Shown: in pieces, positions 774 through 9,810 of the stretch | Position numbering within the stretch: the first letter of the stretch is position 1 | Layout of the letters: each line of letters begins with the position of its first letter | Assembly (NCBI GenBank): GCA_023701265.1 | Contig: JAMPXI010000008.1 | Location: 1-37,548 of the forward strand | Origin: Desulfuromonadales bacterium | GTDB lineage: Bacteria; Desulfobacterota; Desulfuromonadia; Desulfuromonadales; BM103 | Direction of reading: 5' to 3' | DNA: 37,548 nucleotides | Translations under genes and position numbers: made by a program | The notes under the pieces: generated by a model | Seen by the model: the letters and a program-made list of their open reading frames with translations, nothing else | What the model was told of the DNA's origin: nothing | Databases searched by the model: none

Positions 774-905
774 ATGACCCTGCTGATCCATTTTCTCATG
801 TGCCTGACGACGATATTTGAACGTCGTGTGCCGCCGGAGAAACTGTCCTCTGATGCTCAGCCCTTTTCTGAAGAGACATCATCCAGAGAACCGGAAATAT
901 GGTGA
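774..905 (+). CDS. Possible 43-residue membrane micropeptide
   Basis: This short frame begins ATG ACC CTG CTG ATC and ends with TGA at 903-905. The predicted peptide starts MTLLIHFLMCLTTIF, a hydrophobic N-terminus, followed by a charged, Ser/Glu-rich tail ending EPEIW. An AAAGGA Shine-Dalgarno-like sequence at 759-764 sits 9 nt before the ATG. The stop is only 4 nt before the proposed start of the downstream permease, so translational coupling is possible. I recognise no family. It may be a leader peptide or a chance ORF; its placement and ribosome site are the only support. Confidence 0.35.
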   Translation: MTLLIHFLMCLTTIFERRVPPEKLSSDAQPFSEETSSREPEIW

Positions 906-909
906 AATT

Positions 910-1647
910 ATGTCAGCTGAACTTCTTCCTCTGCTCGCCGTCTGCATCTTCGTGGTCGCCATGCTCTACGCCAGCGTCGGGCATGGCGGCGCCTCCGGCT
1001 ACCTGGCAACGATGGCGTTGTTCAGCCTGCATCCGGCGGCACTGAAGCCGACCGCCCTGGTGCTGAACATCGTCGTCGCCGGAGTCGGCACCTGGCTGTA
1101 CTGCACGGCGAAGCAGTTCTCCTGGCGGCTCTTCTGGCCCTTCGCCATCACCTCGATCCCCGCCAGTTTCCTCGGCGGCTGCTTCAATCTGCCGCCGCAC
1201 CTCTACCGGCCGTTCCTGGGGGTGGTGCTGCTCTTCGCCGCCTGGCGTCTGTTCGTCCGCACCGAGCGGCGGGAAGGGGAGATATGCCCGCCGCGGCTGC
1301 CGGTGGCCATGGCTGTCGGGGCGGTGCTCGGTTTCGCTTCGGGACTGATCGGCGTCGGTGGCGGGATCTTCCTCAGCCCGCTCATGGTGCTGCTCGGCTG
1401 GGCGCGGGTGCGCGAGGTCTCGGGGATTGCCGCCCTGTTCATCCTGGTCAATTCCGCGGCCGGGTTGCTCGGGCATGTCAGCAGCCTGCAGCAGATTCCC
1501 GGCTATGCCCCGCTACTGGCGGTCATGGCCCTGGCCGGCGGTACCCTCGGGGCGCTGGGGGGGAGCCGGCACCTGCCGGTCCCGGTGATTCTCAAGGCGA
1601 TGGCGATGGTGCTGGTGATCGCCGGCGGGAAGATGATTCTGGTCTAG
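910..1647 (+). CDS. TSUP/TauE-SafE family membrane permease
   Basis: Predicted integral membrane transporter of the sulfite exporter TauE/SafE (TSUP, DUF81) family, which moves sulfur-containing or organic anions; the substrate cannot be read from the sequence. The 245-residue protein has about seven to eight hydrophobic segments and the repeated glycine-rich motifs of the family (ASVGHGGASGYLATMALF near the N-terminus and GLIGVGGGIFLSPLMVLLG in the second half), as expected for two inverted repeats. I chose ATG 910 (MSAELLPLL) because hydrophobic sequence begins there. An in-frame upstream start at 817 would add 31 charged residues unlike the family. It lies between nifB and a CDGSH protein on the same strand. 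A role in sulfur or molybdate supply for nitrogenase would be speculation. Confidence 0.85.
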   Translation: MSAELLPLLAVCIFVVAMLYASVGHGGASGYLATMALFSLHPAALKPTALVLNIVVAGVGTWLYCTAKQFSWRLFWPFAITSIPASFLGGCFNLPPHLYRPFLGVVLLFAAWRLFVRTERREGEICPPRLPVAMAVGAVLGFASGLIGVGGGIFLSPLMVLLGWARVREVSGIAALFILVNSAAGLLGHVSSLQQIPGYAPLLAVMALAGGTLGALGGSRHLPVPVILKAMAMVLVIAGGKMILV

Positions 1648-3035: not shown

Positions 3036-4043
3036 CTACTCCCCGCCAAAACACAGCGCATGATCGCTGCATGTCCCACAGTCCGGCGTCTTGCACATTG
3101 TCCCGCCGCTCCGGTCGCAAAGCTGCTTGAAAAGGAAGCGCTTCCAGCGCATTCCGTTGCCGTTGGCGGCGGCCAGGGCGGGGAGGTGGCGGCGGATTAC
3201 CGCGGTCAGCTCCGGACGGGCGAACAGGCCCATGGTCAGCCAGAGATGGCCGGGGCGCGCGGCGCGGGCGGCGAGGATGCGGGCCAGCCAGAAGGAGGTC
3301 GCCGCCGTCCAGCCCTCGGCATCCCGGGGAAGGTAGGAGAGCAGCAGATCGAGAATCTCGGGATTGGCTTGCGGGCAGTCTGCGGAGGCTGAAGCGGAAG
3401 ATGTTTTCCAGCTCGCTGGGGTGACTGCGGGGAAGTAGAAGGAGAGAAGGTCCGCCAGTTCGTCTTCGTTCAGGCCGAGGGCTGCGTTGATGGCACATGG
3501 TTCTCCGGCGGCGACGGCAAGCAGGCAGGCAACGAGATGGCGATCCTCGGCAGGCGCGTCGGGCGGAGCCGGGCTGTCGATGAGCAGACGGTAGACCGGG
3601 TCGGCGGCAGAGACGCGCGGGGCATGGTCGTCGTCCGCCGCGATCGTTGCCGTGACGGGCTGGTGGCTGTTACGGGCGCTCTTGACTGCGGCCTGCAGGG
3701 CTTCGACCGCCAGTACGGCGCAATAGTCGCGATCCGGCGGCAGGCCGGCGAGGGTGGCTTCGACCCAGGCAGGTGCGATGGCGACGACCTCGGCCAGGGC
3801 GTGCCCTTCGGCCAGTTCCGCCGCCGCGGCGCAGGCGGCAATGGTGAAGCCGCAGCCGAACACCTGATAGCGCACGGTTTCAATCCGGTCGTCGCGGACG
3901 CGCAGGGTGAAACGCACCGCCAGTCGCCGGCCGGCCTCTCCCTCGCCCAGGCCGACTTCGCCGATGCCGTCGGCGTCAGGGAGCGCCCCGGCGCGGCGGG
4001 TGTCGGTGGCCCAGCGGCGGATGGTGTCTGTATAGTTGGCCAT
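3036..4043 (-). CDS. nifQ: Fusion protein: IscU/NifU-like scaffold domain plus NifQ molybdenum-donor domain
   Basis: A 335-residue two-domain protein. Residues 1 to about 125 resemble the IscU/NifU N-terminal Fe-S scaffold: YQVFGCGFTIAAC (C64, matching the YGCGSAIASS cysteine) and LPPDRDYCAVLAVEALQAAVK (C108, matching the third IscU cysteine). The first IscU cysteine and its partner Asp (ACGD block) are not present. Residues about 160-335 are NifQ: RWKRFLFKQLCDR leads into the hallmark C317-x4-C322-x2-C325-x5-C331 motif (MCKTPDCGTCSDHALCFG). NifQ carries a Mo-Fe-S cluster and donates molybdenum to NifEN. The gene is third in nifE-nifN-this gene, 58 nt after nifN across a palindromic repeat. 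The domain calls are from motifs; the combined function is inferred. Confidence 0.85.
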   Translation of the reverse strand: MANYTDTIRRWATDTRRAGALPDADGIGEVGLGEGEAGRRLAVRFTLRVRDDRIETVRYQVFGCGFTIAACAAAAELAEGHALAEVVAIAPAWVEATLAGLPPDRDYCAVLAVEALQAAVKSARNSHQPVTATIAADDDHAPRVSAADPVYRLLIDSPAPPDAPAEDRHLVACLLAVAAGEPCAINAALGLNEDELADLLSFYFPAVTPASWKTSSASASADCPQANPEILDLLLSYLPRDAEGWTAATSFWLARILAARAARPGHLWLTMGLFARPELTAVIRRHLPALAAANGNGMRWKRFLFKQLCDRSGGTMCKTPDCGTCSDHALCFGGE

Positions 4044-4066: not shown

Positions 4067-4106
4067 CATAGGACCGATCGGACGCATAAGTCCAATAGGT
4101 CCTATG
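4067..4106. repeat. Palindromic intergenic repeat, CATAGGACC/GGTCCTATG family, between nifN and the nifU/nifQ fusion
   Basis: Perfect 9-bp arms CATAGGACC (4067-4075) and GGTCCTATG (4098-4106) flank a 22-nt centre. The right arm overlaps the nifN stop codon (TAG, minus strand, 4102-4104), so the element provides the end of nifN. A related element with the same TAGGTCC/GGACCTA words occurs at 21861-21896 after hdrA. In RNA it would fold into a hairpin between two cotranscribed genes. Confidence 0.7.
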
Positions 4107-5397
4107 GGTGCCCGGGTTCTCTCCGCATCTGTTCCGCTGCATTCGCCACCTCGAATAGAAAGTACGCCCCGCCCTCGTAGAGCACATCGTTTTTGAGCTG
4201 GTTGCCGAGGGTTTCCCAGTCGGGGAAGCCGCGCGGCACTACTCCTTTGTGATGGCGGTGGGCGAGGGCCTCGACGTGGCCGTTGCCGACGATCAGGTCA
4301 AATCCGTCGCGCAGATCCTCGGCATCCTCGAGGTCGCCGACCAGCACCCGGCCGGCGGGGAGCCCGTCCAGTTGCGGCGAGTCGACGGTGGCGATGGCGA
4401 TCTCGACCTTCGCCCCGGCTTCGGTCAGCAGCGTGCAGGCCCCGGCCAGGAAGTCCGGCTCGCCAGCCACCAGGATGCGGGTCTGGCCGAGGGCGAAGTG
4501 GCAGTCGAGCAGGGCATCCTGCAAGCGCTGGCGCCAGCGCACGATATCGGCAACGGGGCGTTCGCGGCCGGTTGCTGCCAGGAGCAGTGCCGCCAGGGCG
4601 TCGGTGGCCGCCAGCCCCAGCAAGTGGGGGAAATGGTGGTGGCGGATCGCCGGATTCTTGGCCTGCAGGGCCCTGGCACAGGGGAGCATCGATGCGCCGA
4701 CGCTGATGACCAGGCCGGCATCGGCCAGGGCGCGGATCTCCTCGACGGAGATGCCGCCGCTGGAAAGGGTGCTCTGCTTCTCGCCGAGATGGCCGTCGAG
4801 GCTGGTGGAAAGGTCGGGAAGCGCCAGGACTTCGAAGCCGTAGGCGGCGATGAAGTCTTTGAGTTTTTCTACCTCGATCGGCTGCAGCGAAACGTGCGGC
4901 AGCAGCACCACCTTGTTGTCGTCGACAGCCTGGGTCGGCGCGGTCAGCTGTTCGATCAGCATCCTGGCCGCCAGCGCCCAACCGCTTTCCAGTCCGCCTT
5001 CGAAATCCGGGGTGTTGACCCAGACCAGGGGATACTCGACCTGGGAGGCGACGCCGCGGATGTCGTCCCCCTTGGTTTCGGTCAGCCCGGTGGTGTACAG
5101 GCCGATCAGCGCGGGCGCCACTTTTTCGGTGACGTTCCGCACTGCGGCGACGATGTTGTGGTCGCCGCCGTCGAGAACCGCGGTAATATCGGTGACCGCG
5201 GTGGTCTGGATGGCGATCGGTTCGCAGAAGTGCCGGGTGAAGTAGACCTTGGCGAAGGAGGTGCATCCCTGGGCACCGTGCATCAGCGGCATGCAGCGGT
5301 CGACGCCGAGAAAGGCCAGCGTCGCCCCCAGCGGCTGGGAGAGGCGGATCGGGTTGACCTGCAGCGGCTTGACCGGTTTGCGGCTCACGGCTCCCAT
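4102..5397 (-). CDS. nifN: Nitrogenase iron-molybdenum cofactor assembly protein NifN
   Basis: NifN is the beta-type subunit of the NifE2N2 scaffold on which NifB-co is matured into FeMo-co. The 431-residue protein shows RKPVKPLQVNPIRLSQPLGA, LHGAQGCTSFAKVYFTRHF-type sequence (here LMHGAQGCTSFAK, cluster-ligand cysteine), TTAVTDITAVLDGGDHNI and TTGLTETKGDDI, all typical of NifN rather than NifK. The C-terminal half has the Rossmann-like nitrogenase component 1 fold signature VEALAHRHHKGVVPRGFPDWE. The start ATG at 5397 overlaps the 3' end of nifE by 13 nt, indicating translational coupling in a nifEN operon. Length is normal for the family (about 430-460). Confidence 0.96.
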   Translation of the reverse strand: MGAVSRKPVKPLQVNPIRLSQPLGATLAFLGVDRCMPLMHGAQGCTSFAKVYFTRHFCEPIAIQTTAVTDITAVLDGGDHNIVAAVRNVTEKVAPALIGLYTTGLTETKGDDIRGVASQVEYPLVWVNTPDFEGGLESGWALAARMLIEQLTAPTQAVDDNKVVLLPHVSLQPIEVEKLKDFIAAYGFEVLALPDLSTSLDGHLGEKQSTLSSGGISVEEIRALADAGLVISVGASMLPCARALQAKNPAIRHHHFPHLLGLAATDALAALLLAATGRERPVADIVRWRQRLQDALLDCHFALGQTRILVAGEPDFLAGACTLLTEAGAKVEIAIATVDSPQLDGLPAGRVLVGDLEDAEDLRDGFDLIVGNGHVEALAHRHHKGVVPRGFPDWETLGNQLKNDVLYEGGAYFLFEVANAAEQMRREPGHP

Positions 5398-6731
5398 GGT
5401 GCCCTCCTTGCAGCGTTGCGGAATACCGGGGTTTCCAGGGCGTTTTTCAGATCCTCGGCGAGGTTGAGCAGCCCCTGGTAGCCGCCGTAGCTCTTCTTCT
5501 TCTCCTGGTTGACGTCGGCGAAAGCGATCCCTTTCTTGAGTGCCGTGTACAGGCTGCGGCCGCCGGCCAGCAACAGGTGCGCCCCGGTCTCGTCAATGAT
5601 TTTTGCCTGTTCCTGCCCCGGCCTGGTCATCAGCACCCCGTTTGGTCCAAGGTACTCACGGGCTTTGGCGCGGTCGTCCGCCGTCGACTTGCCGACGGCG
5701 GTTGCCACCACCTCGAGGCCAAGATCCTGAAGTGCCGCGGCGATCGACCAGGACTTGTTGCCGCCGGTGTTGAGCACCGCCTTCTTGCCGCGAAAAAATT
5801 CGCGGTAGGGGGCGAGGCGTGCCTCCAGCGCCGCCTCCTCGCGGGCGACCAGTGCTCGCGTGCGTTCGATCAGGGCGGCGTCGCCGAGCGCTTCGGCAAT
5901 CGCCAGCAGGCCAAAGCTGGTGTCGCGTTTGCCGTAGAAGGAGACCGAGATTGATGGAATGCCGTAGCGCTCCTCCAGCTTGCGGGTCAGCGACACCAGC
6001 GATTTGGCGCAGACCAGCACGTTGAGCCGGGCGCGGTGGGCAGTGCGGATCTGTGCCACCCGGCCGTCGCCGCTCAAGGTGGAGAGGACGCGAATGCCAA
6101 GTTCCTCGAGCAGCGGGGTGTACTGCCACATGTCGCCGGTGACGTTGTATTCGCCGATCAGGTTGATGTCGAAGGGGGTGGTTTCCGTCGGCTCCAGGGT
6201 GCCGATCAGATGCCGCAGGACCGCTTCGCCGGCGAGGCGGCTGCCAAGGTTCTTGCTGCCGACGAAGCCGGGGGCGTGGACCGGGACGACCGGCAGCCCG
6301 TGGGCAAATTCGGCGCGTCTGCAGATGGCATCGAGGTCGTCGCCGATCATGGCGGTGACGCAGGTGGCGTAGACGAACACCGCCTGCGGGGCATAGCGGG
6401 CGACTACGTAGTCGATGGCTTTGGCGAGTTTCTCCTCGCCGCCGAAGACCACGTCGTTGTTGGTGATGGCGGTAGTGAAGCCCATCTGGGTGAGATCGCG
6501 GCCGCGCCAGCTGGTCCTGGTGGCGCGCGTCTCCCAGGAGGCGCCGAGGCAGGTGAGGGGGCCATGTACCAGGTGGGCGGCGTCGGCGTAGGGGAAGAGG
6601 GAGATCTGCGCCCCCTCGAAGGCGCACCCGCCGGTGGTCGCCCCGGGGGTCGGCGCGTTGCAGGCGGCTTTCTTCGCCGGGCTGTGAGTGCAGGCGCTCT
6701 CGTTGAGCAGTTCGCGGATCTTTGGTTTCAT
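5385..6731 (-). CDS. nifE: Nitrogenase iron-molybdenum cofactor assembly protein NifE
   Basis: NifE is the alpha-type subunit of the NifEN cofactor scaffold in the cytoplasm. From ATG 6731 the protein has 448 residues and starts MKPKIRELLNESAC. Diagnostic segments are TTGGCAFEGAQISLFPYADAAHLVHGPLTCLGASWETR, cut here into its key words GGCAFEGA, HGPLTC and ASWETR, then TCVTAMIGDDL, INLIGEYNVTGDMWQ and the C-terminal NQEKKKSYGGYQGL. An in-frame start 39 nt upstream exists, but ATG 6731 has a GAAAGGAG ribosome site about 11 nt upstream and matches the family N-terminus. A sigma-54-type promoter lies about 78 nt upstream of the ATG (TSS estimate). It forms an operon with nifN and the nifU/nifQ fusion. 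Confidence 0.96.
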   Translation of the reverse strand: MKPKIRELLNESACTHSPAKKAACNAPTPGATTGGCAFEGAQISLFPYADAAHLVHGPLTCLGASWETRATRTSWRGRDLTQMGFTTAITNNDVVFGGEEKLAKAIDYVVARYAPQAVFVYATCVTAMIGDDLDAICRRAEFAHGLPVVPVHAPGFVGSKNLGSRLAGEAVLRHLIGTLEPTETTPFDINLIGEYNVTGDMWQYTPLLEELGIRVLSTLSGDGRVAQIRTAHRARLNVLVCAKSLVSLTRKLEERYGIPSISVSFYGKRDTSFGLLAIAEALGDAALIERTRALVAREEAALEARLAPYREFFRGKKAVLNTGGNKSWSIAAALQDLGLEVVATAVGKSTADDRAKAREYLGPNGVLMTRPGQEQAKIIDETGAHLLLAGGRSLYTALKKGIAFADVNQEKKKSYGGYQGLLNLAEDLKNALETPVFRNAARRAPWEP

Positions 6732-6756
6732 TCCCGGGCGCGCTCCTTTCGGGACA

Positions 6757-6802
6757 GTGCGGCTTCGCACCGTTTTGTTCCGTCGCGCCGTTGGGAGGGA
6801 AC
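6757..6802 (-). promoter_or_regulatory. Two inverted repeats in the nifE leader RNA
   Basis: On the minus strand the predicted nifE leader holds GTTCC/GGAAC arms (6777-6781 and 6798-6802) followed by a tighter hairpin GTGCG-AAGC-CGCAC (6757-6770). The second hairpin ends about 25 nt before the start codon. In Geobacter, nif genes are known to be controlled through leader-RNA antitermination by an ANTAR-type protein. The loop here lacks the A at position 1 expected of a canonical ANTAR hexaloop, so that role is only a possibility. Confidence 0.3.
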
Positions 6803-6835: not shown

Positions 6836-6988
6836 GCAGGCTTTGCAGCCATAAACCGGTTTTTTGCAGGGGTTGCGGAGTCAGTTGATGTGCACACCGG
6901 CAAGAATGTGCCGTTTATTTGTGCAGAATTGTGGGGAGGAACCGACCCAGTCAACAGAATCCTGCCGGTTTTCGTGCGAATTTCCATC

Positions 6989-7004
6989 TGGCCACGATTT
7001 TGCA
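6989..7004 (+). promoter_or_regulatory. Sigma-54-type promoter upstream of the glutamine amidotransferase/nifV group
   Basis: The plus strand reads TGGCCACGATTTTGCA, with GG-N10-GC spacing and a perfect TTGCA -12 box. The predicted start site (about 7015) is only two or three bases before ATG 7017, so a transcript would be almost leaderless. This, and the poor ribosome site there, lowers confidence that it is used as drawn. Confidence 0.45.
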
Positions 7005-7016
7005 AAAAGCTTGGGC

Positions 7017-7697
7017 ATGAGAAAACAGGTCGACATCATCCAGAGCGATCCCGAGGTGCCCGCAGGGGTGTTCGAGGCATTGCTGAGCGAGTGGCAGGTG
7101 CCGTTTCGCATCCTCCGGCCGGATCTCGGTGAAGCGCTTCCGGCCAACGCCGCTGCCGTCATCGTCCTCGGTGGAGTCATGGGGGTGCATGACGAGGCGC
7201 GGCATCCCTTTCTCCGGGCGGTCAAGGAGTTCATGGGCCGGGTGCTGGCTGCCGGGACACCGCTTTTCGGCATCTGTCTCGGTGGACAGTTGTTGGCCGA
7301 CGTGGCCGGGGGCGTGGTCAGCAGCAACCGTTGCGGCGAACGGGGGCTCGTTGCTGTCGGCCTGACCGCCGCCGGCGCGGCCGATCCTCTGTTTGCAGGG
7401 ATCAACGAGCGGTTCCAGGCCTTTCAGTGGCACAACGACAGCTTCACGATCCCTCCCGGCGCGGCGCATCTGGCCAGCTCAAGCGTCTGCCCCGGTCAGG
7501 CGTTCCGGTTTGGCAACGCCTGGGGAGTGCAGTTCCACCCGGAGGTCGACAGCAGCATCGTCGCGTCCTGGAGCAGACGCAACCCGGCCCAGATCCAATT
7601 GACCGATGAATTCGCCGCCGCCGAGGCTGCCCACCGGGCATTGGCCCGGCAACTGCTGGCCAACTTCCTGGCAACGGCCGGGATGCGCTTCAGCTGA
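7017..7697 (+). CDS. Class I glutamine amidotransferase (GMP-synthase-like)
   Basis: A 226-residue stand-alone class I GATase domain. The nucleophile elbow FGICLGGQLLA places Cys87, and GVQFHPEV supplies His174 and Glu176, completing the Cys-His-Glu triad for glutamine hydrolysis to ammonia. The oxyanion-region motif VLGGVMGVHDE matches the GMP synthase (glutamine-hydrolysing) GATase-like group (GATase1_GMPS-like). There is no synthetase domain, so the acceptor is unknown; such proteins act on varied substrates. ATG 7017 (MRKQVDIIQSDPE) matches family N-termini. An in-frame extension upstream to 6864 runs through the promoter region and is rejected. It lies divergent from nifE and 111 nt before nifV, so it may belong to the nitrogen-fixation regulon. 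Confidence 0.85.
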   Translation: MRKQVDIIQSDPEVPAGVFEALLSEWQVPFRILRPDLGEALPANAAAVIVLGGVMGVHDEARHPFLRAVKEFMGRVLAAGTPLFGICLGGQLLADVAGGVVSSNRCGERGLVAVGLTAAGAADPLFAGINERFQAFQWHNDSFTIPPGAAHLASSSVCPGQAFRFGNAWGVQFHPEVDSSIVASWSRRNPAQIQLTDEFAAAEAAHRALARQLLANFLATAGMRFS

Positions 7698-7808: not shown

Positions 7809-8951
7809 ATGAAGCCGTTCGACGACAAAGCCATCATCATCGACGACACCACCTTGCGTGACGGCGAGCAGACCGCCGGGGTGGTCTTCTCCCTCGCAGA
7901 GAAGATTGCGATCGCCCGGATGCTCGACGCCATCGGCGTCCAGGAGATCGAGTGCGGCATCCCGGCGATGGGGGCGGAGGAACAGGCATCGGTCCGGGCC
8001 CTGGTCGATCTCGGCCTGAACGCGAGGCTGATCACCTGGAACCGGGCGGTGATCGGCGATATCCAGGCATCCATCGACGCCGGGGTCACGGCCGTCGACA
8101 TCTCCCTGTCGGTCTCCGATATTCATATCCGCCACAAGCTGCGCAAGGACCGCGCCTGGGTCAAGGAGCAGCTCAAAATTGCCCTCGGCTTTGCCAAGGC
8201 GCATGACCTTTACGTTTCGGTCGGCGGCGAGGATGCCAGCCGTGCCGATCTCGATTTTCTGGTCGAACTGCTGGAGATCGCCCGCGGTCTGGGCGCCGAC
8301 CGTTTCCGTTTCTGCGACACCCTCGGCGTCCTCGACCCGTTTGCCACGTTCGACAAGGTCAGTTTCCTGCGAACCAGGGTTCCGGGGCTCGATCTCGAAG
8401 TGCACACCCACAACGACCTCGGCATGGCCACTGCCAACGCCATCGCCGGCATCCGTGCCGGGGCGCGCTTCGTCAACACCACGGTCAACGGCCTCGGCGA
8501 ACGGGCCGGCAACGCCGCGCTGGAAGAGGTGGTGATGGCGCTCAAGCACGCCTGCGGCATCGATCCCGGCGTCGATACCCGCCGCTTCGTCGAGCTGTCC
8601 CGACTGGTCGGGCAGGCCAGTTGCCGGCCGGTGCCGGAATGGAAGGCAGTGGTCGGCGAACGGGTTTTTGCCGTTGAATCCGGGCTGCACGCCGACGGTG
8701 TGCTCAAGCATCCCGGCAACTACGAGGGGTTCGATCCGGCCGAGGTCGGGCTCGACCGGCAGATTGTGCTCGGCAAGCATTCCGGCCGTCACGGTCTGCT
8801 CTACCGGCTCGCGGCCCTCGACATCGTGCTCGCCCCGGCCGAGGTCCTTCCCTTCATGGCACGGGTTCGCTGCCGCAGCCAGCAGTTGAAACGCCCGTTG
8901 AGCGACAGTGACCTGCTCGTGCTGATGACGGAGCGTGCCGATGCTGCCTGA
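7809..8951 (+). CDS. nifV: Homocitrate synthase NifV
   Basis: NifV condenses acetyl-CoA with 2-oxoglutarate to give homocitrate, the organic ligand of FeMo-co. The 380-residue protein has the DRE-TIM metallolyase signature DTTLRDGEQTAGVVFS near the N-terminus, the HTHNDLGMATANAIAGI metal-binding His motif, NTTVNGLGERAGNAALEEV and the GLHADGVLK and LGKHSGRHG segments. These fit homocitrate synthase rather than 2-isopropylmalate synthase, and length and lack of a LeuA regulatory domain agree. ATG 7809 follows a strong TTTTGGAGG site. Its neighbours, nifB and nifEN, support the nif role. The 3' end overlaps the next gene. Confidence 0.95.
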   Translation: MKPFDDKAIIIDDTTLRDGEQTAGVVFSLAEKIAIARMLDAIGVQEIECGIPAMGAEEQASVRALVDLGLNARLITWNRAVIGDIQASIDAGVTAVDISLSVSDIHIRHKLRKDRAWVKEQLKIALGFAKAHDLYVSVGGEDASRADLDFLVELLEIARGLGADRFRFCDTLGVLDPFATFDKVSFLRTRVPGLDLEVHTHNDLGMATANAIAGIRAGARFVNTTVNGLGERAGNAALEEVVMALKHACGIDPGVDTRRFVELSRLVGQASCRPVPEWKAVVGERVFAVESGLHADGVLKHPGNYEGFDPAEVGLDRQIVLGKHSGRHGLLYRLAALDIVLAPAEVLPFMARVRCRSQQLKRPLSDSDLLVLMTERADAA

Positions 8952-9810
8952 ACCGCTCGCTTCAAACTATGCGATCGATTCACCCGGTGTGATCGGTTCG
9001 CCGGTCCCACGGGAGTGGGAAAATTTCCTGGCCTGGGCAGAGCTGGAAGGGTGGCGGGTGCCGGTGCGGGAGCTGTCGGTCTACCGCAACGAACTGGCTG
9101 ACTGCGTTTTCGTCCTGCGCGACGCGGATGCCTGCCCGCGCGGTTTCGTCACCGTCTGTCGCCACCAGCGCAGCGCCTGGATTGGCAATCTGATCATCGA
9201 CCCCGCCTGTCGCGGACAGGGGCTTGGTCGCCGGTTGTTCGAGCATGCCGTCGGCCATCTGTCTGCCCGCGGCACCGCCACCCTCTGGCTGACCGCCTCC
9301 CAGCAGGGGCGTCCGCTCTATGAGGGCTGCGGCTTCCGTGAGGTCGGGCGGATTGAGCGCTGGCTGTGGCGCGGCGACAGCTTGTCGTCCACCAGGGCCG
9401 ATGACGTGCGCAACGGGGATCTCTACTCGCTGGTCCGGGCCGATGCCGCCGCCTGGGGGCACTCCCGGGCCGAGTTGCTGACGTTGCTGGCGCGCGGCGG
9501 ACAGATCTTCACTTCCGGCAGCACGGCAGCCCTGTTGCAGCCCGGCAGCAGTCTGCGCGTGCTCGGCCCATGGCTGTCGGCGAACCTCTGTCCGCGTGCC
9601 AACCGGAATATCCTGTCCCGGGTTCTGGACGCGCTTGACGGCGGCGGCGAGGTTGCCGTCGATCTGCTCGGTGGCTCCCCGGTGGGGGCACTGCTGCCTG
9701 TGGCAGGTTTCCACCCGGCCGGCGAAACCGTCCTGATGATGCGCGGCGCAGCGGGGATGGTGCGGCTTGGCGAAGTGGTGGCACTGGCCAGCCTGGGGAG
9801 CATGGGGTGA
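8941..9810 (+). CDS. GNAT family N-acetyltransferase with C-terminal extra domain
   Basis: A 289-residue protein with an N-terminal GNAT fold: FVTVCRHQRSAWIGNLIID (beta strand 4) followed by the acetyl-CoA pyrophosphate loop CRGQGLGRRLFEHAV, then LTASQQGRPLYEGCGFREV. Residues about 150-289 form a second module resembling the Acetyltransf_18-like C-terminal region of YitH-type acetyltransferases. The substrate is unknown. ATG 8941 overlaps the nifV stop by 11 nt; an in-frame GTG at 8935 is an alternative. The overlap implies translational coupling with nifV, and hence expression under nitrogen-fixing conditions, but no direct role in nitrogenase maturation is established. Confidence 0.82.
   Translation: MLPEPLASNYAIDSPGVIGSPVPREWENFLAWAELEGWRVPVRELSVYRNELADCVFVLRDADACPRGFVTVCRHQRSAWIGNLIIDPACRGQGLGRRLFEHAVGHLSARGTATLWLTASQQGRPLYEGCGFREVGRIERWLWRGDSLSSTRADDVRNGDLYSLVRADAAAWGHSRAELLTLLARGGQIFTSGSTAALLQPGSSLRVLGPWLSANLCPRANRNILSRVLDALDGGGEVAVDLLGGSPVGALLPVAGFHPAGETVLMMRGAAGMVRLGEVVALASLGSMG

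Follow-up and report, generated by a model that had tools for sequence, protein, structure and literature searches.

What can an IscU/NifU-like scaffold domain do when it is fused to NifQ, the molybdenum donor, and has lost most of the residues with which such scaffolds bind iron? This question is raised by a gene of a Desulfuromonadales bacterium (GCA_023701265.1), for which we analysed positions 1 to 37,548 of contig JAMPXI010000008.1 on the forward strand; this whole stretch of 37,548 nucleotides is called the window below. The gene and its parts are arranged as follows:

3036..4043, minus strand: NifU_N-NifQ fusion gene, 335 aa, start codon ATG (open reading frame, Pfam, homologues)
3678..4034, minus strand: IscU/NifU N-terminal-like domain (N-domain), residues 4-122, without equivalents of Cys35, Asp37 and His103 (Pfam NifU_N, predicted fold, column counts)
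3534..3677, minus strand: variable linker, residues 123-170 (mean pairwise identity 0.357)
3045..3533, minus strand: NifQ domain with C-x4-C-x2-C-x5-C (Pfam NifQ; motif cysteines invariant in intact copies)

The original prediction of a scaffold fused to NifQ, with the full NifQ cysteine motif at its C-terminus, was borne out by two Pfam profiles. NifU_N matched residues 4-122 (E 2.8e-17, 63.5 bits against a cut-off of 22) and NifQ (PF04891) matched residues 171-333 (E 2.9e-43, 148.5 bits against a cut-off of 27), and the motif C317-x4-C322-x2-C325-x5-C331 is complete in the window protein. The N-domain scored far below the cut-offs of the NCBIfam equivalogs for NifU or IscU, TIGR03419 (72.7 vs 187.9), TIGR02000 (72.1 vs 273.3) and TIGR01999 (46.5 vs 192.4). 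A survey of other genomes recovered 56 non-redundant relatives, and the identical frame, architecture and losses in 56/56 rule out a gene-call artefact, a frameshift, chance or a sequencing error. The NifQ cysteine motif was found in 54 of these relatives, the other two being cut or frame-shifted at the motif. Relative G077 (L016:5896-6936 and L073) presents a frameshift near the NifQ C-terminus, with the cysteine motif in another frame. In a single metagenome-assembled genome (L010:6001-7317, JAACTI010000160.1), the fusion continues in frame into CowN (PF20543, E 2.6e-33), which yields a NifU_N-NifQ-CowN frame of 439 aa. Apparently larger proteins at L024 and L054 (frames of 794 and 665 aa) were rejected as merely open frame across nifN.

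The predicted structure has a mean pLDDT of 80, with lower values near the new loop of the N-domain and the NifQ cysteines. The predicted fold of the N-domain is that of IscU (4eb5_C, the IscU of A. fulgidus, superposes on 121 residues with Z 20.9 and rmsd 2.0), and a fold predicted this well suggests that partner surfaces could be kept. SufE and CsdE, which are sulfur acceptors and not cluster scaffolds, matched the predicted model at a middling level (Z 7-8) and with low identity (9-17%); the SufE family model gave no match in Pfam or NCBIfam searches of the window protein at E up to 10. For NifQ, a PDB search with an E limit of 1 gave no sequence match to a solved structure.

The fusion is already published, and its altered site is apparently undescribed. 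PMC11605450 (J Biol Chem 2024) reports NifQ as the C-terminal part of proteins with an IscU/NifU-like N-domain in some deltaproteobacteria, e.g., Geoalkalibacter ferrihydricus and Malonomonas rubra. These fusions have the same architecture as the window protein, and that of Malonomonas rubra DSM 5091 (L011) is 50% identical to it over 335 aa. It is suggested from the fusion in PMC11605450 that the [4Fe-4S] cluster of NifQ is made in the NifU N-terminal part. The paper also reports that apo-NifQ of A. vinelandii is bound by NifU and NifS and receives iron from NifU, contacts which fit the earlier idea of an Fe-S-type domain joined to the molybdenum donor, and for the entry of molybdenum into the NifQ cluster it speaks of an unknown protein. 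In the literature searched, the available parts of PMC11605450 included, we found neither the lost metal site nor an invariant Cys71 described, and no further publication pairs NifQ with Geoalkalibacter there.

To compare the scaffold site, we aligned the 56 non-redundant fusions and, from the genomes that carry them, 30 ordinary NifU/IscU domains. Its main features in the window protein are:

3921..3950, minus strand: replaced CGD loop, residues 32-41 (LGEGEAGRRL), 4 residues longer than in NifU, G38 invariant (alignment)
3852..3854, minus strand: Cys64 codon, equivalent of Cys61 (FGCG), invariant (56/56)
3831..3833, minus strand: Cys71 codon, an extra invariant cysteine, Ser in 30/30 ordinary NifU/IscU (alignment)
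3720..3725, minus strand: Tyr107-Cys108 codons, equivalents of His103-Cys104, with His replaced by Tyr and the persulfide-acceptor Cys retained (56/56)

The equivalents of Cys35, Asp37 and His103 were present in 30/30 ordinary scaffolds and in 0/56 fusions, which present R, S, T, K and others at the first position, L, I, P or V at the second and Tyr at the third (56/56). The Lys found two residues ahead of His103 in ordinary scaffolds is Arg in all fusions (56/56). Only the equivalents of Cys61 and Cys104 are common to both sets (30/30 and 56/56 for each), and seven residues past the former every fusion carries a new cysteine, Cys71 in the window protein, where all ordinary domains have Ser. 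In the fusions, the loop ahead of the lost Cys has four additional residues and contains an invariant Gly; residues 32-41 stand where the genome's own IscU-type NifU reads NASCGD. Inside this extended loop the alignment may be off by a few residues, and the loss of Cys35 is independent of it because no conserved cysteine exists anywhere in residues 1-63. A third cysteine in that segment was rejected, as the few cysteines present there are sporadic among the 56 fusions. Cys64, Cys71 and Cys108 are the sole invariant cysteines of the N-domain (56/56). Two of the three scaffold cysteines had thus been read correctly (FGCG and YC, without the CGD block). As for a third cysteine elsewhere that completes the site, an extra one does exist in Cys71, and it may play a part there. 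Overall, the N-domain resembles the NifU N-terminal domain and IscU in its fold, its identity of about 30% and the Cys61 and Cys104 equivalents, and differs from them by the three lost residues, the four-residue insertion and the Ser-to-Cys71 change.

In ISCU, the iron ligands are C35, D37, C61 and H103, and the persulfide goes to C104; the iron-cysteine site is abolished when C35, D37 or C61 is singly substituted and nearly abolished when H103 is (PMC6687725). With three of these four ligands replaced, the iron-loading site appears to be gone from the fusions, and the N-domain would retain only the roles of C61 and C104, i.e., one iron ligand and the persulfide cysteine, besides the cysteine that it gained. 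This counts against the assembly of a cluster as in NifU. The NifU_N match above cut-off and the IscU fold would suit an ordinary scaffold that builds the [4Fe-4S] cluster of NifQ in cis, as PMC11605450, where the domain is called highly homologous to IscU/NifU, suggests from homology. However, three of the four ligands are missing from 56/56 fusions, and the corresponding ISCU substitutions destroy or nearly destroy the site; we regard ordinary cluster building as very improbable. The view of the fused domain as a working cluster builder, which was drawn from homology, is corrected by the altered site. The claim that cluster binding differs from that of NifU is well supported, by more losses than the original prediction knew of. 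Its suggestion of an Fe-S cluster made or held by the protein itself is to be divided: making one is unlikely with the iron site lost, and holding one may still be achieved via Cys64, Cys71 and Cys108.

Such holding could involve a metal or cluster site remodelled from these three cysteines, possibly where two monomers meet or with NifQ cysteines taking part, in which a cluster would be bound unlike in NifU. This is close to the view first taken of the protein. The invariance of the three residues and the absolute change from Ser to Cys at the helix position favor a remodelled site, as does the model, in which Cys71 sits where the predicted helix 65-78 begins, seven residues after Cys64 and on about the same helix face. 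Yet the alpha carbons of Cys64 and Cys71 would be two helix turns or ~10.5 A apart (from ideal helix geometry, i to i+7, and not from model coordinates), which is wide for one cluster, and the Asp and His ligands are both lost. These two residues could share a single cluster only if the geometry were bent or the site spanned a dimer, and we consider the remodelled site a doubtful explanation that still deserves some weight.

Alternatively, the N-domain may be a sulfur relay similar to SufE/CsdE: Cys108 would take the persulfide from NifS and, with Cys64 and Cys71, deliver it to the site in NifQ, either as cluster sulfide or to sulfurate molybdate. The active cysteine of SufE is usually in the region of Cys61 and not at Cys104, which counts against this possibility, and the middling fold match to SufE/CsdE counts for it. 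C104 of ISCU is the persulfide receptor and is dispensable for the main iron site, but persulfide transfer in ISCU requires metal (PMC6687725) and the metal site is lost in the N-domain. A relay would also fit the reported suppression of Klebsiella nifQ mutants by cystine, which has been taken to mean that molybdenum encounters a sulfur donor at an early step of the pathway (cited in PMC6361004). On balance, we find a sulfur relay improbable.

A survey detected NifQ in 59 of the 277 genomes of the class, and among 395 sampled genomes of the phylum above-cut-off NifQ was confined to the window's order. Every NifQ copy of the order that could be read with its upstream sequence is a fusion with the N-domain, and the idea that the fusion is a rare oddity was rejected on this ground. 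One weak, sub-cut-off NifQ-like match with an internal TAG lies in another class of the phylum (G633:C3:13961-14068) and is perhaps a pseudogene or a chance match. Contig-end-cut pieces aside, no stand-alone variant N-domain was seen in the 277 genomes: the matches to the N-domain drop from E 1e-39 for a contig-cut fusion to 2e-28 for a 126-aa frame in the size class of ordinary IscU, and the 30 NifU/IscU proteins of such size or longer that were read all possess CGD. Proteobacterial stand-alone NifQ shares the NifQ domain and cysteine motif with the window protein, whereas the copies on 123 plasmid records, mostly rhizobial, have no N-domain; the plasmid matches listed start no earlier than about residue 168, and 0/123 covers 80% of the query.

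All N-domains cluster as one group against ordinary scaffolds (100/100 support). Judging from these sequences, the fusion of an IscU/NifU fold to NifQ arose once, in the ancestry of the order. Mean pairwise identity among the fusions is 0.556 for the N-domain and 0.528 for NifQ. The N-domain dN/dS (omega) is 0.09-0.26 and lower than that of NifQ in each of four pairs (simple counting method), which indicates purifying selection on the N-domain, apparently stronger than on NifQ. A remnant kept merely for the folding or stability of NifQ might explain the lost scaffold residues and the N-terminal position, but its identity and omega relative to NifQ, its invariant Cys, Tyr and Arg positions and the plasmid NifQ proteins that manage without it make us give this explanation hardly any credence.

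The neighboring genes place the fusion in a nitrogen fixation region, as follows:

4102..5397, minus strand: nifN, directly upstream of the fusion with a 58 bp gap (TIGR01285, 404.6 bits)
5385..6770, minus strand: nifE (TIGR01283, 531.2 bits)

The placement right after nifEN was therefore confirmed, on the same strand. It also recurs elsewhere: scanning some 85,000 species gave 14 related loci, 12 of which present the order nifE-nifN-fusion (one of them displaying only the end of nifN). In the two exceptions, the contig begins inside the fusion (L012) or the fusion is upstream of nifE (L013). Divergent from nifE and nifN are nifV and a class I glutamine amidotransferase gene (6864-7697, plus strand) that lies between nifE and nifV, is found in L005 and is absent from most other loci. 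A GNAT-type acetyltransferase gene (8935-9810, plus strand) overlaps the end of nifV and adjoins nifV in most related loci. The window starts with a nifB fragment, and between this fragment and the fusion is a membrane protein gene (817-1647, plus strand) named TauE/TSUP-like by its look and without a family match. A similar gene stands beside nifB in L008, L009, L013 and L015 (70-77% identity), and it may encode a nif-region transporter for sulfur or an oxyanion. In the same genome, nifDK is on another contig and a cysteine desulfurase is next to the IscU-type NifU on contig C58; at least one further NifU_N protein was found in 42 of the 44 fusion-bearing genomes. This is the setting of an ordinary Mo-nitrogenase organism.

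The reading that we favor, tentatively and at close to an even chance, is that the N-domain is an IscU fold put to a new use, the docking of NifQ to NifS/NifU and the transfer of a cluster or sulfur, and is not a builder like NifU. An IscU/NifU fold would have been fused once to NifQ in the ancestry of the order, would have lost the iron-loading half of its scaffold site and would then have been retained as a dedicated module for docking and hand-off. It would bring the C-terminal cysteine motif of NifQ to NifS and to a separate, fully equipped NifU/IscU-type protein; the cluster or its sulfur would pass from the N-domain to this motif, where a [3Fe-4S]/[4Fe-4S] cluster would take up molybdenum for NifEN. 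The docking, the hand-off and the partner proteins are what we infer: the kept fold and the published contacts of NifU and NifS with NifQ favor docking and hand-off in cis, and a docking module is further supported by the separate complete NifU in the genome, the lower omega of the N-domain and its absence without NifQ. On the other side, three invariant cysteines exceed the need of a pure docking module, which indicates some thiol chemistry, and the conserved Arg/Lys pattern (R40/K, R44, R105) may be there for a ligand and not for a partner.

We hold another account to be possible but rather unlikely: an order-specific domain of the molybdenum pathway that evolved from an Fe-S scaffold as the iron site was lost and a Cys64/Cys71/Cys108 thiol center with a conserved basic loop was acquired. 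The NifQ attached to this domain would be supplied by it with prepared sulfur or molybdenum, or else with an unusual cluster. If this account were true, iron, sulfur and molybdenum would meet in one polypeptide before NifEN. A fusion that discarded the iron site and kept the persulfide cysteine narrows the possible roles of its scaffold half, and it offers a single polypeptide in which both Fe-S hand-off and molybdenum loading may be tested.
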